Below are positions 11 through 45,626 of a DNA stretch of 64,000 nucleotides, piece after piece. The translations under genes were made by a program, and so were the position numbers. The DNA comes from Microbacterium invictum (lineage in GTDB: Bacteria > Actinomycetota > Actinomycetes > Actinomycetales > Microbacteriaceae), in assembly GCF_034421375.1 (NCBI RefSeq), contig NZ_CP139779.1:310001-374000 (forward strand). Reading direction: 5' to 3'. Positions within the stretch are counted from its first letter, which is position 1. Every line of letters starts with the position of its first letter. The notes beneath the pieces are model-generated. The model saw only the letters and a list, made by a program, of their open reading frames with translations. It was not told the DNA's origin and did not search any database.

Positions 11-98
11 GGTGACGTGTCCGAGCGGCCGAAGGTGCAACTCTCGAAAAGTTGTGTAGGGTAACCCCCTACCGTGGGTTCAAATCCCACCGTCACCG
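11..98 (+). tRNA. tRNA-Ser (anticodon CGA)
   Basis: Class II tRNA of 88 nt with a 7-bp acceptor stem (GGTGACG at 11-17 with CGTCACC at 91-97), discriminator G98 and a genomically encoded CCA at 99-101. The anticodon stem CAACT/AGTTG encloses the loop CTCGAAA, which gives anticodon CGA. A long variable arm (GTAGGGT...CCCCTAC) supports serine. The T arm and 3' end recur at 44901, so this gene appears to be the attachment target of the adjacent island. Confidence 0.95.
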
Positions 99-344
99 CC
101 ATAAATCCCTGATCAGAGGCTACTTTCAGGTTCTGATCAATGGGATGAGCAAAAGCGCCGCGAGCGATGCGTGGCGCTTTTTGCATCTGACCGGGCATTT
201 TGTCACCAGGTTCATGCTCAGTCCGTGAGAAAGTAGCGGTGTGCTCGATTCTTGCTCGCAGAGGCGCGAGGACCTGGACTCGAGTGAAGAAAACTCCCGG
301 TTGAGCCGAATTCGAGCGTGAACCTGCGGTGGGATTCTGCCCCA
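78..344 (+). repeat. Left copy of diverged direct repeat (attL-like)
   Basis: Runs from the tRNA T loop through the terminator to a conserved block ending GGTGGGATTCTGCCCCA. The partner is 44901-45175 in the same orientation. The first 41 nt (78-118) match 44901-44941 at 37 positions by eye. Further shared blocks are CAATGGGAT, a hairpin followed by a T tract, TTCTTGCTCGC and GGTGGGATT-TGCCCCA. This organisation fits duplicated attachment-site flanks of a tRNA-targeting integrative element. Confidence 0.75.
151..182 (+). terminator. Rho-independent terminator downstream of tRNA-Ser
   Basis: AAAAGCGCC at 151-159 pairs with GGCGCTTTT at 173-181, with a 13-nt loop and a T tract. It lies 50 nt after the tRNA. 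A sequence-diverged hairpin occupies the equivalent position in the second repeat copy (44979-45005). Confidence 0.75.
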
Positions 345-1213: not shown

Positions 1214-1335
1214 CTCGGCGACCGCCCTGACGCAGTCGGCGACGCTGACACAATCGGCCTTCCCGGGGAAAGGTCGACTCGACCTTCGGCAGCACCGAGA
1301 GGCAACACCGGTGGAGACACAGGACGCTGGTCGAT

Positions 1336-1352
1336 ACGGGTTCGAATCCTGC
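1336..1352 (+). other. Isolated tRNA T-arm-like sequence
   Basis: ACGGG-TTCGAAT-CCTGC has the shape of a tRNA T stem-loop with four of five pairs, one of them G-T. No D arm or anticodon arm precedes it, so it is not a tRNA. It shares GTTCGAATCC with the right-hand attachment copy. It may be a fragment of an older tRNA-end insertion, or chance. Confidence 0.2.
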
Positions 1353-1381
1353 GCCGTTTCGTTGTGCTCCGCATTCCGCGG

Positions 1382-2587
1382 TCAGTGCTCGATCAGGCGT
1401 CTGATGCCGCGCTTTGAGAGGTATTCCTTGTCGTCCGCGCGTGAGGCGAGCACGATTGCAGGTGCAGAGCCGGCTTCGATCAGGCTGAAGAAGGCATCCG
1501 CGAAAGTCAGGTCGGGGGTGGTCTCGTCGGGAAGCACGAGCGCGACATCTCGCACCTTCACGGTCACGCCGCCCGACCGCACAAGGTTTGCTGCATCGCG
1601 AAAGGCGCGGCCGGCAGGTTTGACCTCGTTGTCGACGGTTAGCAGCCCTAGGTCGTACTCCAGTTCGATGAAACCGTCTAGCTCGCGGCTGATGTCGTGG
1701 GAGCACCACCACGTGATACCCCAGAGATTCTCGACAGAGGCAGCAGCGGCGGTGGCGACCTCGAGAAATGCGGCCGGGTCATCGAGCCACGTGGTCGACG
1801 CGCCGTACTCCTGCAACCAGACGGGACGGTTCGCGTCATTGCCGTAGGCCTTGGCGAGTTCGAGCATGAACTCAGCCAAGTGGACCGTGCCGGTGCCAGA
1901 GTGCCCGTAGCGATCCAGAGCGCCGGTGAAGTAGATCCACGCGTGAATGGGGGTGACGCTTCCGGTCGCGCCAAGGGCGCGTCGGCTGAAGGGCTCGTCA
2001 TCGGTCAGCCATGGGCGGTGGTCCATCCCGACACTGTGGAGTTTGCTCGGCGCGACTTCTTCCGCATATCCCAGCAACTCAACGAGCCAGGCGTCACCCT
2101 GCTCGAGGGTCGTTTCGTTGTGGTTGCGCTCGCGGCCGGGGCCTCCGGCGATGACGCTCGGTTCGTTGGCGATGTCAAAACCCAAGAAGGCGGGATGGCC
2201 GCCGACCCGATCGGCCAGCGCGCGCACCAGCCGGAGTTCGGCGTCGATCACATCGCGATCGGCGAAGATGTTCTGGTCGTCCTGAAGCCAGGAGGGCCGG
2301 AAGTCGAAACCGCTGAGCCACCCATCGAAGATGGTCACGATGACATCGAGGTCATTCTCAGTCGCGATGTCCATGAGCCGCTCGAGCCGATCGAGCATGG
2401 TGCTGCTCACCACGCGCGCGTTCGGTTGGAACAGCGGCCACAGACAATGAATCCGGATGTGGTCTGCGCCGATCGCCCGAATGGCGGCCAGATCAGCGAC
2501 GATGGCGTCGTCGCGCCAATCCACCCAGGAGTACCACCATCCCGATCCGGGGACATAGTTGACGCCGAAGCGCGGAGGAGTGTTCAT
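1382..2587 (-). CDS. Cytosolic GH5-like (clan GH-A) glycoside hydrolase
   Basis: The product is 401 aa. The start is ATG 2587, which has GGGAG upstream; an in-frame extension to 2668 would overlap the preceding lactonase gene. The fold is a TIM-barrel cellulase/mannanase type. It begins FGVNYVPGSGWW, has the acid/base-type motif DIANEPS near residue 145 and the nucleophile-type WLQEYGAS near residue 265. There is no signal peptide, so it should act in the cytosol on imported oligosaccharides. It lies 19 bp downstream of the SMP-30 lactonase gene on the same strand, so the two are probably one transcript divergent from the FadR-type regulator. The substrate cannot be read from sequence. Confidence 0.75.
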   Translation of the reverse strand: MNTPPRFGVNYVPGSGWWYSWVDWRDDAIVADLAAIRAIGADHIRIHCLWPLFQPNARVVSSTMLDRLERLMDIATENDLDVIVTIFDGWLSGFDFRPSWLQDDQNIFADRDVIDAELRLVRALADRVGGHPAFLGFDIANEPSVIAGGPGRERNHNETTLEQGDAWLVELLGYAEEVAPSKLHSVGMDHRPWLTDDEPFSRRALGATGSVTPIHAWIYFTGALDRYGHSGTGTVHLAEFMLELAKAYGNDANRPVWLQEYGASTTWLDDPAAFLEVATAAAASVENLWGITWWCSHDISRELDGFIELEYDLGLLTVDNEVKPAGRAFRDAANLVRSGGVTVKVRDVALVLPDETTPDLTFADAFFSLIEAGSAPAIVLASRADDKEYLSKRGIRRLIEH

Positions 2588-2606
2588 CGATGTTCTCCCA
2601 GGAGTT

Positions 2607-3446
2607 TCAGCCGGCGAAGGGCAGAGGCGGATAGCCGCAGAAGTCGACGTCGGCGGCGAACAGCGCACCCGCCGGTCCTCCCCTGTCGTCCAGCCCGAGG
2701 CGTGATGTCGTGATGTAGAGCGTGGCCAGGTCGGGGCCCCCGAAGGTGCAAGCCGTCACCTGATCTGCGGGCACCTCGATCACGAGATCGAGTTCTCCGT
2801 CAGCGTCGTAGCGACGGACGTGGCCGCCGCCCCACATGGCTACCCAGGTCCCGCCCTCTGTGTCCATGCAAAGCCCGTCCGGCATGCCGAAATCTGCGGG
2901 GATGTGCACGAACGGCGTCCTTATGATCCTGCCCTGATCGATCTCGAGGCGTTCGATCGTTCCGGTAGGGGAGTCGATGTATCGTCCCCCGTGCGACCGC
3001 GTGAATTGCATTCCGTTCGAGATCGAGACCCCTGCGATGACCTTCTCCACCTCGGCCGCAGGCGTCATCCGGAAGACGTCGCCGCGACCCGTCGCCTGGT
3101 CGTATGCCATCGTGCCGCAGAGGAAGTTGCCGTCTAGGTCGCACGTGCCTTCGTTGAACCGCACTCCTGGCGCCTCAACCACTTTGCTGATCGCCTCGAG
3201 GTTGCCCGCAGTATCGTAGAGCGCGAAAGAATCCTCAAGCGCCGCGATGAAGCCGCCTCGGGAGCGTGGGCGGAGGCAAGCCACGACCTCTCCGAGATGC
3301 CGACGCGATACGGCCGCCGTATCGGCGTTGAGAATCAGGATGTCACCGGCGAGCATGTCCAGCCACGCGACACCGCCAAGCGCGGGGATCCACACTGGCC
3401 CTTCGCCGTGAACCGTGTGCGGATCGGTGACCTGCGCCAAAGGCAT
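2607..3446 (-). CDS. SMP-30/gluconolactonase-family sugar lactonase
   Basis: The product is 279 aa, a six-bladed propeller of the SMP-30/regucalcin family. The start is ATG 3446 with AGGAGAGG upstream. Family landmarks are HGEGPVW at the N-terminus with the metal-ligand Glu, the RFNEGTCD segment, SNGMQ, and MPDGLCMD with the metal-binding Asp. This family hydrolyses aldonolactones to aldonates, the second step of oxidative (Weimberg/Dahms type) sugar pathways. XylC of Caulobacter is an example. Its promoter faces the FadR-type regulator and carries the FadR-like operator at 3471-3481. The exact lactone is not known. Confidence 0.85.
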   Translation of the reverse strand: MPLAQVTDPHTVHGEGPVWIPALGGVAWLDMLAGDILILNADTAAVSRRHLGEVVACLRPRSRGGFIAALEDSFALYDTAGNLEAISKVVEAPGVRFNEGTCDLDGNFLCGTMAYDQATGRGDVFRMTPAAEVEKVIAGVSISNGMQFTRSHGGRYIDSPTGTIERLEIDQGRIIRTPFVHIPADFGMPDGLCMDTEGGTWVAMWGGGHVRRYDADGELDLVIEVPADQVTACTFGGPDLATLYITTSRLGLDDRGGPAGALFAADVDFCGYPPLPFAG

Positions 3447-3462
3447 ACGTTTTCCTCTCCTG

Positions 3463-3491
3463 TGGTCCGACTGGTCAGACCTTAGTATACT
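3463..3491. promoter_or_regulatory. Divergent promoter with FadR-like operator
   Basis: CTGGTCAGACC at 3471-3481 matches the core of the E. coli FadR consensus (CTGGTCnGACC), with an extra half-site TGGTCCGA just before it. The palindrome AGTATACT at 3484-3491 supplies a TATACT -10 on both strands. On the plus strand this -10 ends 7 nt before the regulator ATG at 3499, which implies a leaderless mRNA. On the minus strand the predicted transcription start would fall inside the operator. The motif recurs at 5423-5433. Confidence 0.65.
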
Positions 3492-3498
3492 TTCCCGT

Positions 3499-4275
3499 AT
3501 GGCCCCCGATCTCGCAGTCACGTCGAAGGAACTCGTCGACGAGCTGGAGCACAAAATCCTGTCCGGAAAGTACACGGTGGGGGAGATGCTTCCCTCCGAG
3601 CGACGGCTGTCCGAGGCATACTCGGTCAGTAGATCCGGGGTTCGTGAGGCGCTCAAGATCCTCGGCGAGCGAGGACTCGTCACGGTGCGTCATGGTCGCG
3701 GAACGTTCGTTACGGATCCGAACGCCGGGGCCGCGGGTGCCGCAATCGGGAACGCTCTGCGCCGCGAACGCATCACTGCCCGCGACGTCATCATCGGGCG
3801 CATGGCCGTCGAGAAAGAGTCGGCCGCCCTTGCGGCGGAGGCGCGGACGGATGCCGACCTCGAGCTCCTGGACCGGATCATCGAAGGAATGGAAACCTCC
3901 TCGGCCATCCTCGACCGCGTGCGCGCGGATCTCGCGTTCCATCTCGCATTGGTGAAGGCCTCGCATAATCCCGTCTTCGAGGCGATGTTCCGCGCGATCT
4001 CCGGGTTCACCGCGGAGATGATGCTGCGCAGCCTGTCGGACCGAGCCGTCGCCGAGGTCGGCGTGCCGCAGCACCGCGCGATCCTTGAAGCGGTCCGTCA
4101 GCGCGACGCCGGGGAAGCCCGGCGCCTTGTCGAGGAACATATGGCCGTAGCCATTGAGCGCTACGGACCTGACCTGGAGAGGTCGCTGGACACCGTTGCG
4201 GAACGCGAGCTGCAGCGCGTGCTCGGTCCGACCGGATCGCTCGAAGACATCTGGCGGGTGGCGGACCGAGAATGA
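3499..4275 (+). CDS. GntR-family transcriptional regulator, FadR subfamily
   Basis: The product is 258 aa. It has an N-terminal winged helix (about residues 8-75: LPSERRLSEAYSVSRSGVRE, then GLVTVRHGRGTFV) and an all-helical FCD effector domain. The FCD metal-site residues are visible in the spacing D...H (DLAFHLALVKASHN), H (VPQHRAILEA) and the terminal EEHM. ATG 3499 was chosen because it lies 7 nt after a TATACT -10, giving a leaderless transcript, and the helix-turn-helix starts directly after it. It most likely represses its own divergent promoter and the operon at 5460 through CTGGTCAGACC sites. The effector is probably a sugar-acid intermediate, which is an inference. Its stop overlaps the dehydrogenase start as ATGA. 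Confidence 0.88.
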   Translation: MAPDLAVTSKELVDELEHKILSGKYTVGEMLPSERRLSEAYSVSRSGVREALKILGERGLVTVRHGRGTFVTDPNAGAAGAAIGNALRRERITARDVIIGRMAVEKESAALAAEARTDADLELLDRIIEGMETSSAILDRVRADLAFHLALVKASHNPVFEAMFRAISGFTAEMMLRSLSDRAVAEVGVPQHRAILEAVRQRDAGEARRLVEEHMAVAIERYGPDLERSLDTVAERELQRVLGPTGSLEDIWRVADRE

Positions 4276-5351
4276 GCGGCGACAGCAACTCGGGTCGAGG
4301 TATCCCCTCGATGATGAAGGCGGTGCGGTGGCACGGGCGCGGCGACCTGCGCGTGGACACCGTCCCCGTGCCTTCGCCCGCCGACGATGAGATCTTGTTG
4401 CGGGTCGGGTGGGCCGGCATTTGTGGGACCGATCTCGAAGAACTTCAACATGGCCCGCTCACCATCCCCATCGAGCCGCACGTCTCGAGTGGCCGCTCAG
4501 CGCCTCTGATCCTCGGTCACGAGGTCGTCGGGCAAGTGGCCCTCGCCGCGGAGAACGGAGAGGGTCCGCTTGCCGACGCCTGGGTTGTGCCCGATGTCGT
4601 TCAGGGCTGCGGAAAGTGCTGGTGGTGCGAGTCACACGACGAGGGACTCTGCCCTTCGCTGAACGTGCTTGGCCAGACGGACGATGGGGCGCTGGCGGAG
4701 TTCATGGTCGCCAAAGCATCCCGTTGCCTCCCGGTGCCCACTGGTGTCGACGCACGCACCGCTGCCCTCGCCGAGCCGCTCGCGGTCGCCGTCCGCGCCG
4801 TCGACAAGCTAGAACTGCGTGACGGTTCGACGGTCGCCGTCCTCGGCGGGGGAACTATCGGTCAGCTGGTTGCTCAAGTCCTCGCGGCGTCGAACGCGCG
4901 GGTGCTGCTCGTCGACCCCGTTTCCTCGCGACGCGACTTGGCTGCGAACCTCTCGGGTGCGGTCCCTCTGGCACCGGATGAGTTCGAGAGCCAGGTCCTT
5001 CGCCTGCCGCCCCCAGGGCTGGACGCCGTCGTCGAGTGCGGCGGTCGGGACGGATTGATCGATCAGGCCCTCAGGGCTGTTCGCCCCGGCGGGACTGTCG
5101 TCGCGGTCGGATTGCGAACCGGCTCCGAGCCGATCGATGTTCCCGGCCTCGTGCTGGGGGAGCGCAGACTCGTGGGCAGTGCTGCCCATATGTGGGACAC
5201 CGACGTCGCGCGTGCGCTGGCATTGCTGGATGAGCTCGACATCGAGCCGCTGATCACGCATGAGGTGCCGCTCGCGGACAGTGCTGACGCGTTCTCGCTT
5301 CTCTCGTCGGGGGATCCCGGAGTGCTGAAAGTGCTCATCTCAGCCAGCTGA
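4272..5351 (+). CDS. Zinc-dependent medium-chain alcohol/sugar dehydrogenase
   Basis: The product is 359 aa. Catalytic zinc residues are GICGTD (Cys), GHE (His-Glu) and AEPLA (Glu). The structural zinc lobe has four cysteines (GCGKCWWC...LC, around residues 114-127). The NAD(P) site is VLGGGTIGQ near residue 195. Family members oxidise polyols or aldoses (threonine, sorbitol and butanediol dehydrogenases). Sulfolobus D-arabinose 1-dehydrogenase is in the same superfamily. Given the lactonase, dehydratase, FAH and semialdehyde-dehydrogenase genes around it, aldose 1-dehydrogenase (aldose to lactone) is the most economical role. Oxidation of a keto-deoxy intermediate is an alternative. It overlaps the regulator gene by 4 bp. 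Confidence 0.82.
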   Translation: MSGDSNSGRGIPSMMKAVRWHGRGDLRVDTVPVPSPADDEILLRVGWAGICGTDLEELQHGPLTIPIEPHVSSGRSAPLILGHEVVGQVALAAENGEGPLADAWVVPDVVQGCGKCWWCESHDEGLCPSLNVLGQTDDGALAEFMVAKASRCLPVPTGVDARTAALAEPLAVAVRAVDKLELRDGSTVAVLGGGTIGQLVAQVLAASNARVLLVDPVSSRRDLAANLSGAVPLAPDEFESQVLRLPPPGLDAVVECGGRDGLIDQALRAVRPGGTVVAVGLRTGSEPIDVPGLVLGERRLVGSAAHMWDTDVARALALLDELDIEPLITHEVPLADSADAFSLLSSGDPGVLKVLISAS

Positions 5352-5395
5352 CAGGCGAACGCTGGTTGCGGCGCGAGGGCGTGCGGCGACCGGAG

Positions 5396-5433
5396 TTGAC
5401 AGCAGAGATCCGTCTGGTCATACTGGTCAGACC
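5396..5433 (+). promoter_or_regulatory. Sigma-70-type promoter overlapped by FadR-like operator
   Basis: TTGACA at 5396-5401, a 17-bp spacer and CATACT at 5419-5424 form a near-consensus promoter. The -10 sits within CTGGTCA-TA-CTGGTCAGACC (5414-5433), two half-overlapping copies of the motif found before the regulator at 3471. This geometry suggests direct repression of the operon starting at 5460 by the regulator at 3499. Confidence 0.7.
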
Positions 5434-5459
5434 GGTAGGACAAGCAACAAGGATGTGAG

Positions 5460-6572
5460 ATGCCCGCCCTCCTTTCCACCCCTCACTCGCTGGCGATAGC
5501 GATGTGGGACTTCTCGTGGCTCGAACGGCGCTGGGAAGGCGGCGGATACGAGGACTGGTCTGCCGCTCTGGACGGACTGGTGGCTCGGGGGTACGACGTC
5601 GTGCGTATCGACGCCTACCCCCACCTCATCTGGGACGGTGCGGAGCGATACACGCTCAAGCCCGTGTGGGATCAGCACCCCTGGGGAAGTCCGCACCCCA
5701 TCGACGTCGACCCGTCGAGCGATCTCCTCGAGTTCATCGCGCTGGCCCGAGAGAAGGGTCTACTTGTGTCGCTGTCCAGCTGGTACCGAGAGGACTCGGC
5801 GGATGTCCGGCGGAGGCTGCGCACGCCGGAAGACCTGGCCTCGGTATGGCTCGCCACACTCGCACACATCGAGAGCGCCGGTCTGCTCGACGCCGTGTGG
5901 TTCGTCGACCTCGGCAACGAGTGGCCCCAGCCGATGTGGGCCCCCTTCTTGTATCAGCAGGGCGACGATGCTGCGTCTCTCGATCGCACCTCTGCCGAGT
6001 ACCAGCGCTGGACCGACACAGCACTCGGTATCGTCGCGGCACGGTACCCGGCAATGCCGTTGTGCTTCTCCTTCATCGATCAGATGGACACGTGGGCGCG
6101 CCAGGACGTCAGCGCGTTCGGCCTGCTCGAGCTGCACATCTGGATGGTTCAGGGGGAGGATCCGAGCTTTTACGAATCGCTGGGGTACGACATCGTCGCC
6201 GCCAGCTTCGACCCCGATCAGTATCAGGTCCTGACGGCGGCCCCCGCGCTGTACCGGAGCGATCCCGAACTGTGGAGGAAGCAGCTCGACGCGGCAATAG
6301 ACCGTGCGGCGCAGTGGTCGAAGGCTGCCTCACTTCCCCTGGTCACCACGGAGTCGTGGGCGACGATCTGCTGGAAAGACGGCGAAGGTCTCGACTGGGA
6401 ATGGGTGAAGGAACTCTGCGAGCACGGCGTCAGGCGCGCCCTCGAGACCGGTCGGTGGGCAGCCCTGTCCACAAGCAACTTCTGCGGACCACAATTCCGC
6501 GGCATGTGGGATGACACGGAGTGGCACCAAGCGCTGACCCGCGCCATCCACTCGGTGACACCCGAAATCTGA
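5460..6572 (+). CDS. Cellulase-like TIM-barrel protein, probable cytosolic glycosidase
   Basis: The product is 370 aa. The start is ATG 5460 with AAGGA upstream. It is a clan GH-A-like barrel: SLAIAMWDFSWLERRW at the N-terminus, VRIDAYPHL, VWFVDLGNEWP (Asn-Glu, candidate acid/base near residue 156) and LVTTESWATICW (candidate nucleophile Glu near residue 300). No signal peptide is present. Proteins of this kind are usually annotated only as cellulase-like and I know of no assigned substrate. It is the first gene behind the FadR-type operator and sits directly before the binding-protein gene, so it probably acts on the imported glycoside. Confidence 0.7.
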   Translation: MPALLSTPHSLAIAMWDFSWLERRWEGGGYEDWSAALDGLVARGYDVVRIDAYPHLIWDGAERYTLKPVWDQHPWGSPHPIDVDPSSDLLEFIALAREKGLLVSLSSWYREDSADVRRRLRTPEDLASVWLATLAHIESAGLLDAVWFVDLGNEWPQPMWAPFLYQQGDDAASLDRTSAEYQRWTDTALGIVAARYPAMPLCFSFIDQMDTWARQDVSAFGLLELHIWMVQGEDPSFYESLGYDIVAASFDPDQYQVLTAAPALYRSDPELWRKQLDAAIDRAAQWSKAASLPLVTTESWATICWKDGEGLDWEWVKELCEHGVRRALETGRWAALSTSNFCGPQFRGMWDDTEWHQALTRAIHSVTPEI

Positions 6573-6618
6573 GAACGCCCGCCGCATGGTCGCGGCGGGC
6601 TGGGAAAGGAACACAGCA

Positions 6619-7923
6619 ATGAGAACGAGAAGCAAGTCGATCCTCATCGTCGGCGCCCTCTCTGCGGCCGGCATGTTGGCCGTTACGGGCTGCGCGCCCG
6701 GCGGCCAGACAACCGGCGCGGCGGCGGAGGCGGACAGCGACGGAAAGATCACCGTCTGGACGGCGATCGCAGGCGCGCAGCTCGAGGAGATGGAGTCGTT
6801 CGCGAGCGAGTTCGAGACCGAGCACGACGTCGAGGTCGAGATCGTCTCCGCCGATGACGCCGCGATCAAGCAGAAGGTCCAGGCCGCAACCGCTTCCGGT
6901 GACTTCCCGGACGTCGTCCAGTACTTCGGCGGAAGCTTTATGCAGCCCCTCGTGGACGCGAACGCGTTCCTCCCGCTCGACGACTACGTCGCCGAGGACG
7001 CGGAGTGGGAGGAGCAGATGGTCGACAACTGGGCGGAGAACTACACCTTCGACGGGAAAGTGTACGCCGTTCCCTTCGAGTCGCCGCTCGTCCAGCTGTT
7101 CTACAACACCGAGATCTTCGATGAGGTGGGCATCGATGTCCCCGAGACTTTCGACGACCTGCTCGCCGACGTCGCTACGCTCAAGGAAGCCGGCTATGTG
7201 CCGATCACGGTCGATGGGCAGAGCGGCTGGCCCATGCAGCAGTGGTTCGCGTATCTCGTGATGCGAAACGGCGGCACGCAAGCCGTGTTCGACGCGGTTG
7301 CCGGTGAGCTTCCGTGGGATGACGAAGTGTTCTTGAAGTCGGCCGAGCAGCTGAAGCAGCTCATCGACGCGGGTGCCTTCCAGGAGGGCTTCCTCGGGGA
7401 AGATGACCCGGCCGCACTGGCGCAGTACACCTCCGGCCGGGCAGCGATGAGGCTCAGCGGGTCGTGGATGATGAATCAGCTGGTCAGCGGCGACGACCCC
7501 ACGCTCATCGACCGCACAGACTACACCGCATTCCCCACCGTCGCCGGTGGCGTCGGTGCGGCGACAGACGTGCAGGGCGGCCCGAACGGGAGCCTCGCGA
7601 TCGCACGCCTCTCTCCCGACGCGGACCTCTCCTGGGAGTTCATCAAGGGCTTCACCAGCAACGAGGTCGCCACGCGCGTGGCTGAGAACTCGCTCAGCCT
7701 CGTGCCCAACGAGGTAGAGATCAGCGGGGATCAGCCTGCCGTGTTCTCCAAGATGGTTGCCGAGCTGCCGACCTACACCGGCTTCAACATCTTCTGGAAT
7801 GAGATCCTCTCGCCGGAGCTGAACACGGAGTTCACGAACCTGCAGAACGCACTGGTCGCCGGTCAGATCACGCCGCAGGAAATGGTCACCCAACTCCAGG
7901 CCTACGCCGAGGACCAGCAGTAG
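6619..7923 (+). CDS. ABC sugar importer substrate-binding lipoprotein
   Basis: The product is 434 aa, MalE/UgpB-type family 1 binding protein. ATG 6619 follows AAAGGA. The start leads straight into a lipoprotein signal (MRTRSKSILIVGALSAAG) with lipobox VTGC, predicted to be lipid-anchored at Cys25. The mature N-terminus carries the typical KITVWTAI strand. It precedes two permease genes, forming importer 1 of the window. No ATPase gene accompanies it. The ligand is unknown; the context suggests an oligosaccharide or glycoside whose sugar is then oxidised. Confidence 0.9.
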   Translation: MRTRSKSILIVGALSAAGMLAVTGCAPGGQTTGAAAEADSDGKITVWTAIAGAQLEEMESFASEFETEHDVEVEIVSADDAAIKQKVQAATASGDFPDVVQYFGGSFMQPLVDANAFLPLDDYVAEDAEWEEQMVDNWAENYTFDGKVYAVPFESPLVQLFYNTEIFDEVGIDVPETFDDLLADVATLKEAGYVPITVDGQSGWPMQQWFAYLVMRNGGTQAVFDAVAGELPWDDEVFLKSAEQLKQLIDAGAFQEGFLGEDDPAALAQYTSGRAAMRLSGSWMMNQLVSGDDPTLIDRTDYTAFPTVAGGVGAATDVQGGPNGSLAIARLSPDADLSWEFIKGFTSNEVATRVAENSLSLVPNEVEISGDQPAVFSKMVAELPTYTGFNIFWNEILSPELNTEFTNLQNALVAGQITPQEMVTQLQAYAEDQQ

Positions 7924-7944
7924 GCAGTAGCCGCTCAACAGCGC

Positions 7945-7977
7945 GGGGAGGCGCGCGACCCCGATCGCGCCCTCCCC
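7945..7977 (+). terminator. Intercistronic hairpin after binding-protein gene
   Basis: GGGGAGGCGCG at 7945-7955 pairs with CGCG plus CCTCCCC at 66-69 and 71-77 of the 79xx block, with one bulged C and a 10-nt loop. It has no T tract. Its position between binding-protein and permease genes fits an attenuator or 3'-end stabiliser that raises binding-protein expression. A second example lies at 52072-52109. Confidence 0.5.
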
Positions 7978-7997
7978 CCGCACAGAAAGCACTTCTC

Positions 7998-8876
7998 ATG
8001 ACCCGCAATCTCCGCCGATGGTCGCTGGTGTTCCTTATCCCGGGACTGGCCCTCTACCTGTACGTCGTCATCGTCCCTTCTGCACAGGTCGTCAACTACG
8101 GCTTCTACGAGTGGAGCCCCGGACAGGCCTCGACCTTCGTGGGACTCGGCAACTACGTCGCCATGTTCCAGGACCAGGCGTTTCTGGACGCACTCGGTCA
8201 CACCTTCGTCCTGCTCATCGGCGCGCTGATCATCCAGATCCCCCTCGGGTTCTTCTTCGCCGTGCTGCTGCAGCGAAGCCTGTGGGGGCGCGGGTTCTTC
8301 CAGACCGTCTACTTCATCCCGGTCATTCTCTCCAGCGCCGTCATCGCGGTGCTGTGGCGACAGGTGTACGCGAATGACTTCGGCCTGCTCAACACCATTC
8401 TCCGGGCGGTCGGTCTCGACTCGCTCACGCGTGCCTGGCTCGGAGACACCGAGACGGCGCTCAACGCTGTCGTCGTTGTCGTGGGCTGGCAGTACGTCGG
8501 CCTGTACATGCTGATCTTCCTCTCAGCCATGCAGCGCATTCCGCCCATCATTTATGAGGCCGGCGCCCTGGACGGCGCGACCGGGTGGAAGCAGTTGCGC
8601 CATCTGACGATGCCGATGCTCTTCGACACCTTCAAACTGTCGCTCATTCTGGTCGCCACGGGCGCCGTGCAGTACTTCAACCTCATTCTCGCCATGACCG
8701 CGGGCGGCCCCGCGAACTCGTCCTCGGTGCTGGCGTCCTACATGTTCGAGAAGGCGTTCGATGAGTCGCGCCTCGGATTCGCATCCGCAGTGGCCACCGT
8801 CATGCTCGTCCTCAACCTCATCATCGCCGTCGGCCTCCAGCGAGCGTTCCGGCGTGAACCCTTGGAGCTGGGATGA
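7998..8876 (+). CDS. ABC sugar importer permease, MalF type
   Basis: The product is 292 aa with six predicted membrane helices. It opens with the basic MTRNLRRWSLVFLIPGLALYLY. The ATPase-contact EAA loop is recognisable as YEAGALDGATGWKQLRHLTMPML near residue 190. It lies 74 bp after the binding-protein gene across a hairpin and overlaps the next permease by 4 bp (ATGA). It forms the importer-1 channel with the MalG-type partner. It must borrow an ATPase from elsewhere, as MsiK-type systems do. Confidence 0.92.
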   Translation: MTRNLRRWSLVFLIPGLALYLYVVIVPSAQVVNYGFYEWSPGQASTFVGLGNYVAMFQDQAFLDALGHTFVLLIGALIIQIPLGFFFAVLLQRSLWGRGFFQTVYFIPVILSSAVIAVLWRQVYANDFGLLNTILRAVGLDSLTRAWLGDTETALNAVVVVVGWQYVGLYMLIFLSAMQRIPPIIYEAGALDGATGWKQLRHLTMPMLFDTFKLSLILVATGAVQYFNLILAMTAGGPANSSSVLASYMFEKAFDESRLGFASAVATVMLVLNLIIAVGLQRAFRREPLELG

Positions 8877-9769
8877 CCGACACCCAAGTACGGCTGCCGC
8901 AGGACGTCGACCTCGACAACACGGATCCGACCACCCGCCGCCGAGCCCGGCCGTCGCTGCTGAACATCGTCTTGTTCATCATCATGTGTTTCTGGGGTCT
9001 CCTGACCTTCGGGCCACTGCTGTGGATGCTGGCGAACAGCCTGCGCTCGTCCGAACAGATCGTCACGCAGCCCATCGGGCCGCCAGACCTCTCGAAGATC
9101 ACGAACTACGCGGAGGCGTGGGAACAGGCCGATTTGGGCACCTCGCTGGTGAACTCGCTCATCGTCAGCGTCGGCGCGGTGATCCTCTCCGGGCTGTGCG
9201 CGCTGCTGATCGGGTTCGCCCTCAGCCGCGGTGGGCTCCCCTTCAGCAATGTGCTGCTGACGTTCTTCATGGTCGGACTCCTCATTCCTGCGCTCAGCTC
9301 GCTCCTCCCGCTGCTGCTGCAGCTGCAGGCGTCGGGCCTGACGAGCACGAGAACCGGCCTGATCATCGCGTACGCCGGGGGGCAGCTGTCGCTCGGTGTC
9401 TTCCTCTTCAAGATCGCTTTCGACGCCATCCCGAAGGAGTACATCGAGGCGGCTCTTCTCGATGGCGCCGGAGTTCCTCGCATCCTGTGGTCGATCATGA
9501 TGCCGATGGTTCGCCCGACGATCGCGACCTTCGCGATCCTCGCGTTCATCGCTGTCTACAACGACTTCGTCTTCACCCTCGTGCTCAACAACGATCCGGC
9601 GCTCTACACCCTCCCGGTTTCGCTGCTGCAGTTCAGCTCTGTCTACGGCACGCGATATGACCTGATCTTCGCCTCCGTGGCGATCGCCACCATCCCGCCG
9701 CTCATCGGTTACATCCTGCTGCGCAAGCAGGTGCAGTCCAGCATGGCTGCGGGCGGAAGGACCGGCTGA
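8873..9769 (+). CDS. ABC sugar importer permease, MalG type
   Basis: The product is 298 aa. It has a cytosolic N-terminus, then six helices beginning LLNIVLFIIMCFWGLLTFGPLLWM. The EAA motif is YIEAALLDGAGVPRILWSIMMPM near residue 190. It is translationally coupled to both neighbours: ATGA overlap with the upstream permease, and its stop shares an A with the following ATG at 9769. It is the second channel subunit of importer 1. Confidence 0.92.
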   Translation: MTDTQVRLPQDVDLDNTDPTTRRRARPSLLNIVLFIIMCFWGLLTFGPLLWMLANSLRSSEQIVTQPIGPPDLSKITNYAEAWEQADLGTSLVNSLIVSVGAVILSGLCALLIGFALSRGGLPFSNVLLTFFMVGLLIPALSSLLPLLLQLQASGLTSTRTGLIIAYAGGQLSLGVFLFKIAFDAIPKEYIEAALLDGAGVPRILWSIMMPMVRPTIATFAILAFIAVYNDFVFTLVLNNDPALYTLPVSLLQFSSVYGTRYDLIFASVAIATIPPLIGYILLRKQVQSSMAAGGRTG

Positions 9770-11019
9770 TGACAGCATCCGTTCGCGGCGTCGGCCGCAT
9801 CATCGCTCTTGAGACGTTCCGTCCGGCGTTCCAGCCGAACCTGTGCGTGGTCAAGCTCCGCACGGAGGACGGACTGGAAGGCCTCGGCGAGGCGTTCTTC
9901 CACGCTGCCACCGTGGAGACGTACCTTCACAGCACCGTCGCTCCGCTGGTGCTCGCCCTGGATGATCCCAACCCGGAGAGTGTGGGCCGCGCCCTCACCC
10001 CGTACGTGGGATTCCAGGGCGGCGGGATCGAGAATCGCGCACGGGGCGCGGTCGATATCGCGCTGTGGGACCTGCTGGGCAAACGCACTGGTCAGCCGGT
10101 GGCGGCGCTGCTGGGTGGGCCTGTCCAGGATCGGATCCGGATCTACAACACCTGCGCCGGGAGCGGCTACGTCGGCGACACCTCACAGCAGAACTCCGCC
10201 AACTGGGGCCTCGAGAGATCAGGGAAGTTCGAGGATCTCCAGGCATTCCTGGAGCGCCCCCGCGCCCTGGCGAAGGACCTTCTCGCCGAAGGAATCACGG
10301 CGATGAAGATCTGGCCGTTCGACCGTGGCGCCGAGCGCCACGGCGGGAACGTCATCAGCCCCGAGGACCTCGCGCGCGGAATATGGGTGCTCGACGAGAT
10401 TCGTTCCGAAGTCGGGGACGCGATGGACATCATGGTCGAGCTGCACGGAATGTGGAATGTCGCGTCCGCGGTCAAGATCGTCCAATCGATTGAGAAGTTC
10501 CATCCCTATTGGGTCGAGGACCCCGTACGCGCAGACATGCCGCAAGGCCTCCGTGCCGTGCGAGAGGCCACCTCAATTCCCATCGCCACTGGCGAGACGG
10601 TCGTGGGCGCGCGCGGCTTTCTTCCCCTGCTCCTGGCTGACGGCTTGGATGTCGCAACCGTCGACGTCCAATGGACGGGAGGTCTCACGGAAGCGCGCAA
10701 GGTGGCCACGCTGGCCGACGCCTTCGGCCGCGCATTCGCGCCCCACGACTGCACCGGTCCCATCACCCTGGCGGCGTGCGCGCACCTCGTCATGAGCCAG
10801 CCGAACGGACTCATCCAAGAGACTGTGCGGGCGTTCGTACGCGGATGGTACGCCGAGGTGGTAACACGCGGCCCCGCCATACATGGCGACCTGATGACCT
10901 TGACCGCCGACCCTGGTTTGGGCGTCGAGCTGGCCGAGTCATTCACTCGACGGGCCGACGTCGTCCATCGCTCCACCGAGACCACTTCGAGAGGACATCG
11001 TGCACTTCGTACGGTATGA
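9769..11019 (+). CDS. Enolase-superfamily sugar-acid dehydratase (mandelate racemase subgroup)
   Basis: The product is 416 aa. The N-terminal capping domain is followed by the barrel. Visible elements are the lysine strand end MKIWPFD (about residue 180), metal-ligand regions IMVELHG and YWVEDPV, ATGETVVG, and the strand carrying the catalytic His, FAPHDCTGP (near residue 325). These match galactonate, arabinonate, xylonate and mannonate dehydratase types, which convert aldonate to 2-keto-3-deoxyaldonate. Between importer 1 and the FAH gene it fits the dehydration step of a Weimberg-like pathway. Halophilic and Sulfolobus pathways also use an enolase-family dehydratase here, unlike the IlvD-family XylD of Caulobacter. 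The stereochemistry of the substrate is open. Confidence 0.85.
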   Translation: MTASVRGVGRIIALETFRPAFQPNLCVVKLRTEDGLEGLGEAFFHAATVETYLHSTVAPLVLALDDPNPESVGRALTPYVGFQGGGIENRARGAVDIALWDLLGKRTGQPVAALLGGPVQDRIRIYNTCAGSGYVGDTSQQNSANWGLERSGKFEDLQAFLERPRALAKDLLAEGITAMKIWPFDRGAERHGGNVISPEDLARGIWVLDEIRSEVGDAMDIMVELHGMWNVASAVKIVQSIEKFHPYWVEDPVRADMPQGLRAVREATSIPIATGETVVGARGFLPLLLADGLDVATVDVQWTGGLTEARKVATLADAFGRAFAPHDCTGPITLAACAHLVMSQPNGLIQETVRAFVRGWYAEVVTRGPAIHGDLMTLTADPGLGVELAESFTRRADVVHRSTETTSRGHRALRTV

Positions 11020-11860
11020 AGTTCCCAGCGGCGAGACCTTTGTCGGCTGCCTGTACGACGATCGTCTGACGAGACTGCCGCTGCGATCGGCTGAGGGCCT
11101 GCTCACTGCGACCCTCGACGAGATCCGTCAGATCGTCGACGCCGCTGACGTGGTCGAAGACCGCCCATACTCCTTGCGGTCACCGGTCGACGGCCGGACC
11201 GAGGTTTGGGCGAGCGGCGTCACCTACCGCCGGTCTATGGACGCGCGCGTCGAGGAATCGGACGACCAGGACGTCTACCAGCGCGTCTACGAGGCGGACC
11301 GTCCCGAGCTCTTCTTCAAAGCCAACGCTTGGCGCACCGTCACGGACGGCCAGCTCGCGGGCATCAGAACCGACTCAGACTCCGACGTACCGGAACCGGA
11401 GTTGGCCATCGCGCTGAATCAGCACGGGGAGATCGTCGGCTACCTCGTGTGCAACGACATGACCGCGCGAGCAATCGAGTCGCAGAACCCCATCTACTTG
11501 CCGCAGGCGAAGATGTACGCCGGCTCATGCGTTCTCTCGGCGGGGATCCGTCCGGCCTGGGAAGTCGAGTCGAGCGCCCTGGTCATCGACATGCAGATCG
11601 CACGCGGCGACCAGCACGTGTTTGCCGGCAGCACGTCTACCGCGCAGATGCACCGTCGGTTCGACGACCTCATCCGCTGGCTCTTCGCGGCTGAGCATTT
11701 CCCGTACGGCGTCGTGCTGTCCACCGGCACGGGCATCGTTCCGCCGCTCGACTTCACCCTCCAGGAGGGAGACGTCATCACCATCGACATTCCCGGGGTC
11801 GGATCCTTGCGCAACACCGTCGCACGAGGACCAGCTCCTTTCCTCGCCCGCCAGCGATAG
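11000..11860 (+). CDS. FAH-family 2-keto-3-deoxy-sugar-acid dehydratase or hydrolase
   Basis: The product is 286 aa, with GTG start 11000 after GAGAGGA, overlapping the dehydratase gene by 20 bp. The FAH fold is marked by VWASGVTYRRS, RPELFFKA, the metal motif PEPELAIAL, GYLVCNDMTAR and YLPQAKMYAGSC. These segments resemble the 2-keto-3-deoxy-arabinonate/xylonate dehydratases KdaD and XylX, which make 2-oxoglutarate semialdehyde. Fumarylpyruvate-type C-C hydrolases share the fold. A semialdehyde-dehydrogenase gene follows 17 bp later, which favours the dehydratase role. I infer this from neighbourhood and motif resemblance, without an alignment. Confidence 0.8.
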   Translation: MHFVRYEVPSGETFVGCLYDDRLTRLPLRSAEGLLTATLDEIRQIVDAADVVEDRPYSLRSPVDGRTEVWASGVTYRRSMDARVEESDDQDVYQRVYEADRPELFFKANAWRTVTDGQLAGIRTDSDSDVPEPELAIALNQHGEIVGYLVCNDMTARAIESQNPIYLPQAKMYAGSCVLSAGIRPAWEVESSALVIDMQIARGDQHVFAGSTSTAQMHRRFDDLIRWLFAAEHFPYGVVLSTGTGIVPPLDFTLQEGDVITIDIPGVGSLRNTVARGPAPFLARQR

Positions 11861-11877
11861 GAAAAGAACACTCAGCG

Positions 11878-13407
11878 ATGAATTCTGCAACAGACCTCGT
11901 CCCGTCGATCGATCCGCGTTCCGGCGCGGTGCGCCAGCACTTCCCCGCCACCGATCCGCATGAGATCGCGGAGTATGTGCAGCGTGCTCAAGCGAGCGCG
12001 CGATGGCTCGTTGACCTCGGCCGCGTGGGCAGGGCGGACCTTCTCGACGATTTTGCGGCGGAACTTGAGAGGCGTGAATCCGCCATCCTCGAAATCGGCG
12101 ATGCGGAGACGGCTCTCGGCGTGCCGCGTCTGCGAGGCGAGCTTGCCCGAACCTGCTTTCAGCTGCGCTTCCAAGGCGAAGTGGCGCGAGAAGGCAGCTA
12201 CCTGGGGGCGTCGATCGAGCACGCGGGGGTGACAGCACTTGGACCGCGCCCGGACATCCGGCTCACTCGGGCGCCGGTCGGCCCCGTGGCGGTCTTCTCC
12301 GCAAGCAACTTCCCCCTCGCGTTCAGCGTCGCCGGTGGCGACACGGCCTCCGCGATCGCTGCCGGCTGCCCGGTGATCGTGAAGGGCCATTCCGCGCATC
12401 CGGCACTGTCCGTCGAGGTCGCGTCTGCGATGAAGGCGGTGCTCGATCGCCGGGGCGCCCCCGCCGGTGTGCTCCAGCTCGCCCTGGGACGCAGTGCGGG
12501 CCGAGCCCTGGTGACTGATCCCGGGATCGCGGCCGTAGGATTCACCGGCTCGGTGGAGGGTGGGCGAGCGCTGTTCGACCTGGCGGGCAGCCGAGAGCGG
12601 CCGATCCCGTTCTTCGGCGAGCTGGGCAGCGTCAACCCGTTCGTCGTGACCGCGAGAGCGGCGCAAGAGAAGGCGGATGAGATCGCGACTGGACTCTGCG
12701 CCTCCCTCACGGGATCAGTGGGCCAGCTCTGCACTCGCCCCGGAGTCGTATTCCTGCCCGATGACGACGGCGGCAGGGCCCTCTTCAGTCGACTGGTGCG
12801 ACTTCTCGAGGAGGTGCCGCCCGCGTACATGCTCACCGAAGCGATGGCGTCGAGTTTCCGCACGCGCACCGTCGCGATGGCGGAGCTGGAGCCGCTGACT
12901 ACTCTGCACGGTGAGATCGGGCCGGGGCCGACCGTACGTCCGGCGATCATCGAGACCGCGATCTCTGCATTGATGAGCGAGGACACCGCCCTTCTTCGAG
13001 AAGAGGTGTTCGGGCCATTCGCGCAGGTCTGCTTCTACTCCTCGACGGATGAGGTGCGGAGAGCATTGAGGACGCTCCCAGACGCGCTGACTGGGACCGT
13101 GTTCTCCGGCAGTTCCGACGATGGTCTGAAGCCGATCGTCGAGGCCATGGAGAGCCGCTCGGGCAGGGTCATATTCGACGGGTTCCCGACCGGCGTCGCC
13201 GTCACATGGGGCATGCACCACGGCGGTTCCTACCCCGCCAGCACCAGCGCATTCACTTCTGTCGGCGCGGCTGCCATCCAGCGTTGGCTGCGGCCGATCG
13301 CCTACCAGAACGCCCCGGAAGAGATCCTTCCCGAGGAACTGCGAGATCGCGGCGTCGTCGTCATTCCCACTCGCATCGACGGTGTGCTCGTGACACCCCC
13401 GCGCTGA
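11878..13407 (+). CDS. Aldehyde dehydrogenase, probable 2-oxoglutarate semialdehyde dehydrogenase
   Basis: The product is 509 aa. The characteristic SASNFPLAFSVAGGDTASA and CPVIVKGHSAHP segments place it with the (NADP+) type III ketoglutarate-semialdehyde dehydrogenases. The coenzyme-site loop is GFTGSVEGGRALFDLA, the general-base region ELGSVNPF, and the catalytic Cys lies in GQLCTRPG near residue 284. The reaction would be 2,5-dioxopentanoate to 2-oxoglutarate, delivering the sugar carbon to the TCA cycle. It follows the FAH gene by 17 bp. After it comes a 113-bp gap, the largest in this run. Confidence 0.85.
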   Translation: MNSATDLVPSIDPRSGAVRQHFPATDPHEIAEYVQRAQASARWLVDLGRVGRADLLDDFAAELERRESAILEIGDAETALGVPRLRGELARTCFQLRFQGEVAREGSYLGASIEHAGVTALGPRPDIRLTRAPVGPVAVFSASNFPLAFSVAGGDTASAIAAGCPVIVKGHSAHPALSVEVASAMKAVLDRRGAPAGVLQLALGRSAGRALVTDPGIAAVGFTGSVEGGRALFDLAGSRERPIPFFGELGSVNPFVVTARAAQEKADEIATGLCASLTGSVGQLCTRPGVVFLPDDDGGRALFSRLVRLLEEVPPAYMLTEAMASSFRTRTVAMAELEPLTTLHGEIGPGPTVRPAIIETAISALMSEDTALLREEVFGPFAQVCFYSSTDEVRRALRTLPDALTGTVFSGSSDDGLKPIVEAMESRSGRVIFDGFPTGVAVTWGMHHGGSYPASTSAFTSVGAAAIQRWLRPIAYQNAPEEILPEELRDRGVVVIPTRIDGVLVTPPR

Positions 13408-13520
13408 CGCCATGCCCCCACCTCCCTCCCTCGTCGCCGCGGCCCCGGCATCCCCGGCAACGTGAACGATTCCCCCTCCCACCATCTCAGACCACTTCGC
13501 ACGCCAACAGGAGACTCACG

Positions 13521-15470
13521 ATGAAGCGACAGTCCGCGACGATCACAGCCAACGGAGAGGCGGAGGTCTGGTTCGGGGCCAACTTCTGGTCCCGCGGAGG
13601 CGGACCGCGGATGTGGAGCGAGTACGACGCGGGACTGGTCGAGAGCGAGCTGATTGCGATGCGCGACCTGGGAATGACGATCACGCGCAGCTTCATGTAC
13701 TGGCCGGACTTCATGCCCACCCCGCATTCGCTGGACACTCAGGCGCTGGCGAATTTCCGGCACTTCCTCGACCTTCACGAGAACCTCGGGATGGGAACGA
13801 TTCCGACGTTCCTCGTCGGCCACATGTCGGGTGAGAACTGGGACCCCGAGTGGCGGCAGGGACGCAGTCTCTTCGGCGACGTCTGGTTCGTCGCCCGTCA
13901 AGCGTGGTACGTGCGAGAGGCGACGGCAGCGTTTGCCGACCATCCGGCGGTCAGGGGATGGCTGCTCACGAACGAAGTGCCTATCTATGCGGACTGGAAG
14001 ACGCGCGGCGTCGGCACGGTGAACCACGAAGAGGTCACCAGCTGGGCCCAGATTCTGATCGATGCCATCCGTGCGGGGGGTGGTCGCCAGCCCGTATCCG
14101 TAGGTGACGGTGCGTGGGGGGTGGAGGTGCTCGGGGCCGACAGCGGTTTTCGAGTGCGGGAACTTGCGCCGTTGGTCGACTTCCACGGACCTCACGTCTA
14201 CCGGATGGAGAATGACCCCGTGCGCCAGCACCTGGGGGCAGCGTTCATCTGCGAGCTCCTCGACATCGAGGGCCGCCCGGTGGTCATGGAGGAGTTCGGG
14301 GTCAGCAGCGACTACGTCAGTGGTGACAACGCCGCTCACTACTACCGCCAGGTCCTCCACAACACCTTTCTCGCCGGCGCACGCGGGTGGCTGGCGTGGA
14401 ACAACACTGATTACGACGCGCTCTTCGAGCGAGCGCCGTACTCTCACCACCCATTCGAGATGCACTTCGGACTGACTGACGCGGGTGGCGCCGCCAAGCC
14501 GCAAGCGCTGGAGATGAAGCAGTTCGCCGACCTGATGCACCGGCTCGGTGTGGAGCACCTCACGCGCCCGGACACCGACGTCGCGCTTGTGATCCCCGCC
14601 TACCTGGAGAGCCTCTTCCCTTTCACCCAACCCGAGGACGCCGCTTCGGTCTTCGAAGTCAGCCGTCAGGCGTATGTCGCCTCGCGAGAGGCGGACCTAC
14701 CGATCGGCGTGGCCCGGGAAGCCGACGGGTTACCGGACGACTGCGCGCTCTACCTGCTTCCTTCGGCGAAGCAGCTCACCGCCCCGTCCTGGAAGCGCCT
14801 CCACGAGCGGGTTGCGGACGGCGCGATCGTCTACGCGTCCGTGTTCCACGGGGAGCACGGCGTGCAGCGAGGTCCGTGGTGGCCGAATCTCGACCAGACG
14901 TTCGGTGTCGTCAAGCAGTCACGGTACGGCCTGGTGGAACCGGTCGATGAGAAGACAGTCACCCTCCGATTCGTTCAGGCATTCGGCCAGATCGCCGAGG
15001 GCGAGCAGCTCACCTTTCCGGTCGCCGGCACTCCGAACTCCCGAGCGTTTCTCCCGGTCGTTGCCGCATCTGCGGATGTGGTCGCGGTGGACGGGGCCGG
15101 TCGGCCGGCGTTGCTGCGAAATCGTGTCGGCCGAGGCGAGTTTGTGCTCTGCACCTACCCGCTGGAGCATTTCGCGGCTCGGACACCGGACGTCAATCCG
15201 GAGCCGACGTGGAGGCTGTACGCCGCCCTCGCGACCGAAGCCGGCGTCACCGTCCATGTGAGGAGCGACGACCCGCGCGTGCTCGTGGATCGCGTCGACC
15301 ACGCCGACGGTCGCCACTTTGCATGGTTCGTCAGCCAGGCGTCGCAACCGCTCGTGATCGCTCCGCGCTACGAGGGTGAACTGAGAGACCTCTCCGGCGA
15401 CGTGATCGAAGAGATCGCACTCGACGCCTTCGGCGTGGTGGTTGTCGAGCATGTCCCGGTGGCACGCTGA
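13521..15470 (+). CDS. GH5-like hydrolase with C-terminal GH42-type beta-galactosidase trimerisation-like domain
   Basis: The product is 649 aa. ATG 13521 has AGGAG upstream; in-frame codons further 5' run through the aldehyde-dehydrogenase gene and are not used. Residues 1-370 form a clan GH-A barrel: VWFGANFWSRGGGPRMW, ITRSFMYWPDF, the acid/base-type GWLLTNEVPIY and the nucleophile-type VVMEEFGVSS. Residues about 380-600 (VALVIPAYLES..., LPDDCALYLLPS, GAIVYASVFHG) look like the amidotransferase-like domain of GH42 enzymes, and a small beta domain ends the protein. There is no signal peptide, so action is cytosolic. The substrate is unassigned. It probably releases the sugar that enters the oxidative pathway. 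Confidence 0.75.
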   Translation: MKRQSATITANGEAEVWFGANFWSRGGGPRMWSEYDAGLVESELIAMRDLGMTITRSFMYWPDFMPTPHSLDTQALANFRHFLDLHENLGMGTIPTFLVGHMSGENWDPEWRQGRSLFGDVWFVARQAWYVREATAAFADHPAVRGWLLTNEVPIYADWKTRGVGTVNHEEVTSWAQILIDAIRAGGGRQPVSVGDGAWGVEVLGADSGFRVRELAPLVDFHGPHVYRMENDPVRQHLGAAFICELLDIEGRPVVMEEFGVSSDYVSGDNAAHYYRQVLHNTFLAGARGWLAWNNTDYDALFERAPYSHHPFEMHFGLTDAGGAAKPQALEMKQFADLMHRLGVEHLTRPDTDVALVIPAYLESLFPFTQPEDAASVFEVSRQAYVASREADLPIGVAREADGLPDDCALYLLPSAKQLTAPSWKRLHERVADGAIVYASVFHGEHGVQRGPWWPNLDQTFGVVKQSRYGLVEPVDEKTVTLRFVQAFGQIAEGEQLTFPVAGTPNSRAFLPVVAASADVVAVDGAGRPALLRNRVGRGEFVLCTYPLEHFAARTPDVNPEPTWRLYAALATEAGVTVHVRSDDPRVLVDRVDHADGRHFAWFVSQASQPLVIAPRYEGELRDLSGDVIEEIALDAFGVVVVEHVPVAR

Positions 15471-15471
15471 C

Positions 15472-18508: not shown

Positions 18509-18513
18509 TCTCC

Positions 18514-45625: not shown

Positions 45626-45626
45626 C

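Follow-up and report, generated by a model that had tools for sequence, protein, structure and literature searches.

The window analyzed here, a stretch of 64,000 nucleotides covering positions 310001–374000 of the single-contig, 3.53 Mb genome of Microbacterium invictum (G000; the labels G and L denote compared genomes and loci, respectively), carries at 2607–13407 a gene cluster that is probably an operon of the Weimberg type (Route II), with D-xylose released from a glycoside as its most likely sugar, a reading that we favor with some reservation. A Pfam scan of 30 open reading frames (ORFs) of the window found all five of the enzyme families that a preliminary description of this DNA had named, in genes that are intact throughout: a zinc-dependent medium-chain dehydrogenase (MDR), an SMP-30 lactonase, an enolase-superfamily protein, a fumarylacetoacetate hydrolase (FAH)-fold protein, and an aldehyde dehydrogenase (ALDH). 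Its statement that the dehydratase is not of the IlvD type was likewise borne out, as no ORF scanned gave an IlvD/EDD match. The FAH gene overlaps the end of the enolase-superfamily gene, and 17 bases separate it from the ALDH gene. The probable start of the lactonase gene lies at 3446 rather than 3683, and that of the adjacent regulator gene at 3499 (Table 1).

Conversion of a pentose to 2-oxoglutarate by an oxidative, non-phosphorylating route, as first proposed, is the best reading of the cluster because the five catalytic residues of Sulfolobus KdaD are all conserved in the FAH protein, for which KdaD is the best solved match (2q18, 163 bits; the next chain scores 37 bits). In a pairwise alignment with 39% identity (84 of 215 positions), E103, E132, E134, D153, and K171 of the window's protein correspond to E114, E143, E145, D164, and K182 of KdaD, and all five are invariant in each of the 12 rows of an alignment of bacterial and archaeal relatives. 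These residues of the Sulfolobus enzyme are named in section 12 of a 2022 review (PMC9795676), where residue 164 is printed as Glu but is Asp in the 2q18 chain. FAH-fold hydrolases, by comparison, carry His and Glu, according to the excerpted text of PMC6336799, and section 9 of the same paper reports that the FAH-type enzyme of Herbaspirillum favors the D- over the L-keto-deoxypentonate by 34-fold (Watanabe 2019). As judged from its sequence, the FAH protein of the window argues for a D-pentose, without choosing among the D-pentoses. An archaeal origin was also considered, and the identities in the 12-row alignment give it no support (46–52% to six actinobacterial proteins versus 39% to the Sulfolobus enzyme).

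A second line of evidence is the residue pattern of the enolase-superfamily protein, which is that of the mandelate racemase (MR)-type dehydratases, as was also seen in a comparison against other enolases. K180, W182, E224, H226, E250, E276, D299, and H326 are invariant in an alignment of 19 rows, and in all 19 a Trp occupies the place of the K-x-K motif's second Lys (K180-x-W182). In mandelate racemase and the MR-group dehydratases, the second Lys of this motif serves 2S substrates, while a His-Asp dyad serves 2R substrates. The 2R,3S configuration is that of D-xylonate and L-arabinonate, and D-arabinonate and L-fuconate are 2S. Under this rule, Trp in place of the second Lys would favor (2R)-aldonates such as D-xylonate and disfavor D-arabinonate. 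Curated models rank in the order gluconate/galactonate dehydratase (193 bits), galactonate dehydratase (181 bits), and AraD_Arch (NF040866, the archaeal arabinonate dehydratase; 108 bits against a cut-off of 650), all under their cut-offs. Assignment of the substrate by orthology was dropped, as 80 loci with related enolases offered no consistent pathway partner and the best solved relatives, 2pod, 4dx3, and 3dip, are all generically named.

The aldose 1-dehydrogenase and lactonase genes of a Weimberg route are both represented, by MDR and SMP-30 domains with presumed substrates, and the MDR is 54–55% identical to the MDRs of L112 and L198. The best solved relatives of the ALDH are 1eyy (347 bits) and 3v4c (343 bits), with the third at 64 bits; the ALDH reaches no curated cut-off and scores at best 87 bits against the curated models. 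Its presumed role as a 2-oxoglutarate semialdehyde dehydrogenase is deduced from its genomic place beside the FAH gene; the pairing recurs in L112, L114, L117, L121, L177, and L188, where the two genes are neighbors or no more than about 1 kb apart.

The choice of sugar leans on related loci. Comparison of 194 fetched loci at fixed bit-score thresholds, with seven copies of the window excluded beforehand and two more recognized among the results, left eight different loci, besides the window, that match at least two of the five enzymes strongly (L001, L112, L114, L117/L118, L121, L177, L188, and L189). Outside this genome, only L112, from an unannotated plasmid record of Streptomyces sp. NBC_00841, matches all five strongly (MDR, 54%; SMP-30, 43%; enolase, 58%; FAH, 50%; ALDH, 43% identity), and because they match together there, the grouping of the five genes is more than chance. 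The GntR regulator of L112 is also homologous (37%); the locus differs in its ABC importer, of CUT2 type as read from the ORFs, and in the gene after SMP-30, which encodes a GH120 beta-xylosidase with lectin repeats (3vst, 360 bits; PF21258). L121 (G096) has FAH, ALDH, and SMP-30 proteins 45–52% identical to those of the window, with an IlvD/EDD protein (PF00920) in place of the enolase protein and, adjoining the IlvD gene, a GH120 protein in place of the GH5-like and PF12876 enzymes. Since GH120 is rare, occurring in 3 of 394 class genomes, two such adjacencies are unlikely to be chance; in G096 one copy stands within the FAH locus, in G191 an FAH gene is on a different contig, and G347 has no strong FAH match. 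L117/L118 (G031), from the window's own genus, combines a different enolase with FAH and ALDH, and a GH3 gene about 8 kb away scores 1320 bits on NF052329 (beta-xylosidase/alpha-L-arabinosidase; cut-off 1050) and 652 bits on the beta-xylosidase 7zb3. Its enolase is galactonate-dehydratase-like (300 bits, just under the cut-off of 311), and with L117/L118 the genus has another oxidative pentose locus besides that of the window.

Altogether, a GH120 or GH3 xylosidase gene accompanies three of the eight multi-match loci (L112, L121, and L117/L118), as well as three loci with a single match, namely L198 (MDR) and L174 and L175 (FAH); in the latter two, the FAH gene adjoins a GH3 gene whose product is 46% identical to the GH3 of L118. 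L198 (G275) carries at 9360–17234 a PF12876 glycosidase, a distant enolase, and an MDR (55% to the window's) side by side, together with GH42 and a GH3 enzyme scoring 1071 bits on NF052329 (cut-off 1050). L171 (G165) has a 52% enolase, a GntR gene, a weaker SMP-30 match, and a GH31 enzyme nearest to an alpha-xylosidase model, under cut-off at 321 of 606 bits. These loci point to D-xylose, and the proposal of D-arabinose as the sugar, made in the preliminary description, is left unsupported. L189 (a Herbiconiux plasmid), a relative of the module, combines, at 1051–5489, a binding protein, a 49% enolase, a 44% MDR, and GntR, with no window-type FAH or ALDH in its 13.6 kb. L191 (a plasmid of Shinella sp. 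HZN7) has, at 4135–14417, a 45% enolase with SMP-30, two SDR-type dehydrogenases, an ABC importer, an aldose 1-epimerase, and a second, glucarate-dehydratase-like enolase, and is a different aldose oxidation cluster.

A palindrome, TGGTCAGACC, occurs at 3472, in the gap between the SMP-30 and GntR genes, and at 5424, before the operon, and the two extended copies agree at 17 of 19 positions. It also occurs between the MDR and GntR genes of L112 (6982), ahead of GntR in L171 (15704), and, in the L172 contig, at a distance of about 0.9 kb from GntR. A looser form (TGGTN3ACC/GGTN3ACCA), searched for in ten chosen stretches only, lies in the gap before the L189 enolase gene and near that of L169. 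Palindromes of this form fit the sites of FadR-type regulators, and the element is likely a GntR operator. The 11-mer CTGGTCAGACC has three sites in the genome, versus one for a backward control; two are the copies in the window's gaps and the third lies inside an ORF.

Taken step by step, the ABC importer would most likely take up a small xylose-containing glycoside, which the three GH5-like and PF12876 glycosidases would cleave. The MDR would oxidize D-xylose to D-xylonolactone, and the SMP-30 protein would open the lactone to D-xylonate. The MR-type enolase protein, with His326/Asp299 as the predicted base and His226 as the predicted acid, would convert D-xylonate to 2-keto-3-deoxy-D-xylonate, from which the FAH protein would form 2-oxoglutarate semialdehyde and the ALDH 2-oxoglutarate. 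The palindrome TGGTCNGACC is the probable site at which the GntR protein controls both transcription units. The genes and their families, the residue patterns of the FAH and enolase proteins, the repeated operator-like sites, and the xylosidase genes by several related loci are observed, while each reaction, the sugar, the glycosidases' site of action, and the regulation are deduced from them.

Several observations weigh against this assignment. Neither GH120 nor a GH3 xylosidase is found among the scanned ORFs of the window, the genome has no GH120 match, and the three glycosidases of the locus are mannosidase-like or uncharacterized rather than xylosidases by family. A xylose isomerase scores over cut-off (xylA_Arthro) at genome position 475451, and an oxidative xylose route would therefore be redundant. 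No xylosidase gene is seen at five of the eight multi-match loci, namely L001, L114, L188, L177 (on a contig of 7.8 kb), and L189 (13.6 kb), and L198 has no FAH or ALDH gene within 19.9 kb. Enolases of 42–49% identity are mostly found in other settings: of 80 such loci, none has the ALDH and 19 have a FAH match, only one of them strong. The ALDH reaches no curated model of 2-oxoglutarate-semialdehyde type (two score 74 and 82 bits, far under cut-off). No paper stating the stereochemical rule for K-x-K was found in the literature searched. As for the operator, TGGTCNGACC has three sites in the window versus 1.03 expected, a number reached in 10 of 100 shuffles; with one mismatch there are four sites, reached in 72 of 100; and among 198 loci, 16 contain it, mostly at places without known link. 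By themselves these counts are insignificant, and only the placement of the sites and their recurrence at L112 and L171 carry weight.

An oxidative route for a different pentose or branched sugar, such as D-ribose, D-lyxose, or D-apiose, drawn from a secondary glycoside, would suit three glycosidases without known xyloside activity, the five of eight comparable loci that lack a xylosidase, and the nearby DhaKL and RpiB genes; the xylosidase genes at the five-protein Streptomyces locus and at further loci speak against it, and we consider it rather unlikely. Oxidation of D-arabinose (or L-fucose), supplied by D-arabinan or a D-arabinoside, has in its favor that L-arabinose and D-xylose are already served by isomerase genes in the genome. 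It is nonetheless a distinctly improbable explanation: a K-x-K base would be expected for the 2S acids D-arabinonate and L-fuconate, at the very position where all 19 rows have Trp, and the score on AraD_Arch is less than a fifth of the cut-off. The earlier suggestion of a D-arabinan source also finds no backing in the genome, which has no match to GH172 (PF11175), a weak negative in that 14 controls were silent too; GH183 (DUF4185) matched none of the 30 window ORFs in the Pfam scan, a genome-wide search for it not having been made. Moreover, in the bacterial Route II for D-arabinose described by Watanabe (PMC6336799), the dehydratase is of the UxaA/GarD type and the route includes an aldo-keto reductase.

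Oxidation of L-arabinose through the same steps carries an equally low likelihood. L-arabinonate shares the 2R,3S configuration of D-xylonate, and the GH3 enzymes matching NF052329 by two related loci are xylosidase/arabinosidases that can release L-arabinose, which also counts against D-xylose; the organism has, however, its own genes for this sugar in a single run at 21495–25377 (+), 8 kb downstream (araD, an FGGY kinase gene that is probably araB, and araA). Some FAH/MhpD enzymes act on L-keto-deoxypentonate according to the excerpt of PMC6336799, whereas the review assigns the L-specific enzyme to the DHDPS/NAL fold. Least of all to be expected is a hexonate or 6-deoxyhexonate pathway with the FAH protein as a diketo-acid hydrolase, to which the enolase protein's nearest models (gluconate/galactonate dehydratases) would point, but the FAH protein has the dehydratase Glu/Lys pair and, by eye, reads GVTYRRSMDARVEE, without His, where we take the hydrolase His/Glu site to lie, and no keto-deoxy-acid dehydrogenase, kinase, or aldolase is found among the scanned genes of 2607–13407.

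If D-xylose is indeed the sugar oxidized, the glycosidases call for an explanation. Two GH5-like enzymes, encoded at 1382–2587 (minus) and 13521–15470 (plus), flank the cluster. The former shares with GH5_18 its catalytic Glu pair and its H-x-W motif, with ANEP at 141, HAW at 216, and QEYG at 260, by a comparison of motif and position, without full alignment, with the residues given in the excerpted text of PMC6160142, whose GH5_18 member is a beta-mannosidase of N-glycan cores; this enzyme may release sugar from the imported glycoside. A relative of the enzyme at 13521 adjoins GH38 in G531. The PF12876 enzyme has as its sole solved relative 3gyc (316 bits), a "putative glycoside hydrolase." As a guess, a mannose-containing xyloside would reconcile D-xylose with mannosidase-like enzymes. 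A bolder extension, which we regard as rather unlikely, is that the dehydratase founds a new isofunctional family of bacterial D-xylonate dehydratases, and that the locus breaks down an oligosaccharide containing both xylose and mannose, perhaps a beta-xylosyl-mannoside like that of the plant N-glycan core, by means of a trimming set of the GH5_18, PF12876, and GH5-like enzymes in which PF12876 would be a new xylose-releasing enzyme.

The locus looks acquired, judging from the patchy occurrence of its genes. FAH relatives (E ≤ 1e-30) occur in 50 and enolase relatives (E ≤ 1e-60) in 7 of the 394 class genomes, and the PF12876 gene in 2, G000 being included in each count; G267, G272, and G353 carry both FAH and enolase relatives, far apart or on different contigs. 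Within the genus, a strong FAH match is found in 2 of 89 genomes (G000–G088), namely G000 and G031, and the glycosidase at 13521 in 2 of 99 (including G000). In a separate comparison of lists of the 120 best matches each, contigs coinciding in size were 43476, 424559, 4222, and 5458 for enolase and FAH; 30128, 424559, 4939, and 15366 for enolase and PF12876; and 424559, 3134, and 1335 for FAH and PF12876. Where the shared length is large, the genes are suggested to lie on one contig, and the short ones may be chance. A tRNA-Ser lies at window positions 11–101 (+), on the left edge, next to which the locus may be an island, and an ORF at 45236–45649 (−) resembles, by eye, the end of a tyrosine recombinase.

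The type of pathway is known from several systems. The Sulfolobus solfataricus D-arabinose pathway (SSO1300 MDR, SSO3124 enolase-type dehydratase, KdaD, and ALDH) draws on the same fold families, and to this extent the preliminary description's "archaeal-style" set stands. Beyond the folds it does not: the dehydratase is not of the NF040866 type (108 of 650 bits), and the MDR scores 66 bits against the Sulfolobus D-arabinose 1-dehydrogenase, 2h6e, versus 139 bits for its best solved match. The window also differs in that a single bacterial locus brings together an SMP-30 lactonase, an ABC importer, and glycosidases. The D-xylose operon of Caulobacter is of the IlvD/EDD type, a D-xylose cluster on plasmid pAO1 of Arthrobacter is a possible precedent, and the D-xylose pathway of Haloferax volcanii presumably includes a FAH step. 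The last, archaeal pathway uses an enolase-type D-xylonate dehydratase (PMC9795676, section 10) and is likened here by description only. The bacterial D-xylose Route II of the IlvD/EDD type in Herbaspirillum shares the overall chemistry, the FAH-type dehydratase, and the semialdehyde dehydrogenase (PMC6336799), whereas the window has an enolase-superfamily protein for IlvD/EDD and an MDR for the SDR dehydrogenase. The characterized Microbacterium cluster for D-arabinan is built differently, with GH183, GH172, and GH116 and a putative isomerase and kinase, in the excerpt of PMC10509167. According to the consulted sections of the 2022 review, many bacterial aldopentonate dehydratases belong to the IlvD/EDD iron-sulfur family and archaeal ones are typically enolase-type, for which those sections knew no crystal structure. 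No description of the present enzyme combination was found in the open-licence literature searched, and the joining of an MDR, a bacterial MR-type dehydratase, FAH, and ALDH, with D-xylose as the likely substrate, looks new.

Table 1. Features of the locus, in window coordinates.
Feature	Position	Strand	Evidence or remark
GH5_18-like glycosidase, beta-mannosidase type	1382–2587	minus	PF00150; best solved relative ScGH5_18 7lr7, 293 bits
SMP-30 aldonolactonase (predicted function)	2607–3446	minus	PF08450, 210 bits
Putative GntR operator copy 1, TGGTCCGACTGGTCAGACC	3463–3481	plus	In divergent lactonase/regulator gap
FadR/GntR (FCD) regulator	3499–4275	plus	PF00392, PF07729
Zinc MDR dehydrogenase, presumed aldose 1-dehydrogenase	4272–5351	plus	PF08240/PF00107, 65/65 bits
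Putative GntR operator copy 2, TGGTCATACTGGTCAGACC	5415–5433	plus	Ahead of glycosidase/ABC/pathway operon
PF12876 cellulase-like glycosidase	5460–6572	plus	PF12876, 369 bits; 3gyc, 316 bits
ABC solute-binding protein (SBP_bac_1)	6586–7923	plus	Pfam; lipoprotein-like N-terminus by eye
ABC permease 1	7998–8876	plus	Read from sequence and its matches
ABC permease 2	8873–9769	plus	Read from sequence and its matches
Sugar-acid dehydratase of the enolase superfamily (MR type), predicted to act on D-xylonate	9769–11019	plus	MR_MLE_C PF13378, 187 bits
FAH-fold protein, predicted 2-keto-3-deoxy-D-pentonate dehydratase	11000–11860	plus	FAA_hydrolase PF01557, 59 bits; 2q18, 163 bits
ALDH, presumed 2-oxoglutarate semialdehyde dehydrogenase	11878–13407	plus	Aldedh PF00171, 145 bits; 1eyy/3v4c, 347/343 bits
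GH5-like glycosidase	13521–15470	plus	PF00150, 27 bits; 7bob endo-beta-mannanase, 86 bits

After the pathway genes, a tight run at 15472–20719 (+), encoding a ROK kinase, a xylose-isomerase-like TIM barrel, a 3-hydroxyacyl-CoA-dehydrogenase-like protein, a fused DhaKL, and RpiB, possibly represents a tetrulose or erythritol-type route, and the cut-off of the model for the actinobacterial ribose-5-phosphate isomerase is exceeded in the window. A large protein at 32943–36407 (+), with heparinase II/III-like, F5/8, Big_2, and CBM96 domains, is followed by ThuA, Gfo/Idh/MocA, DUF993, TIM-barrel, and glycerate kinase genes. Finally, a type I phosphomannose isomerase at 45849–47141 (−) and a GH5 enzyme at 58421–60472 (+), part of which weakly matches a mannanase galactose-binding-like domain, make mannan use possible in this region.

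Should the assignment to D-xylose prove correct, an actinobacterium would possess an enolase-type xylonate dehydratase, expected to work without the need for an iron-sulfur cluster. Such an enzyme would allow a mechanistic test of 2R versus 2S acids and would be a candidate for Weimberg engineering. It would also offer a route to assigning the PF12876 glycosidases, for which the neighborhood at L198 provides a further way.

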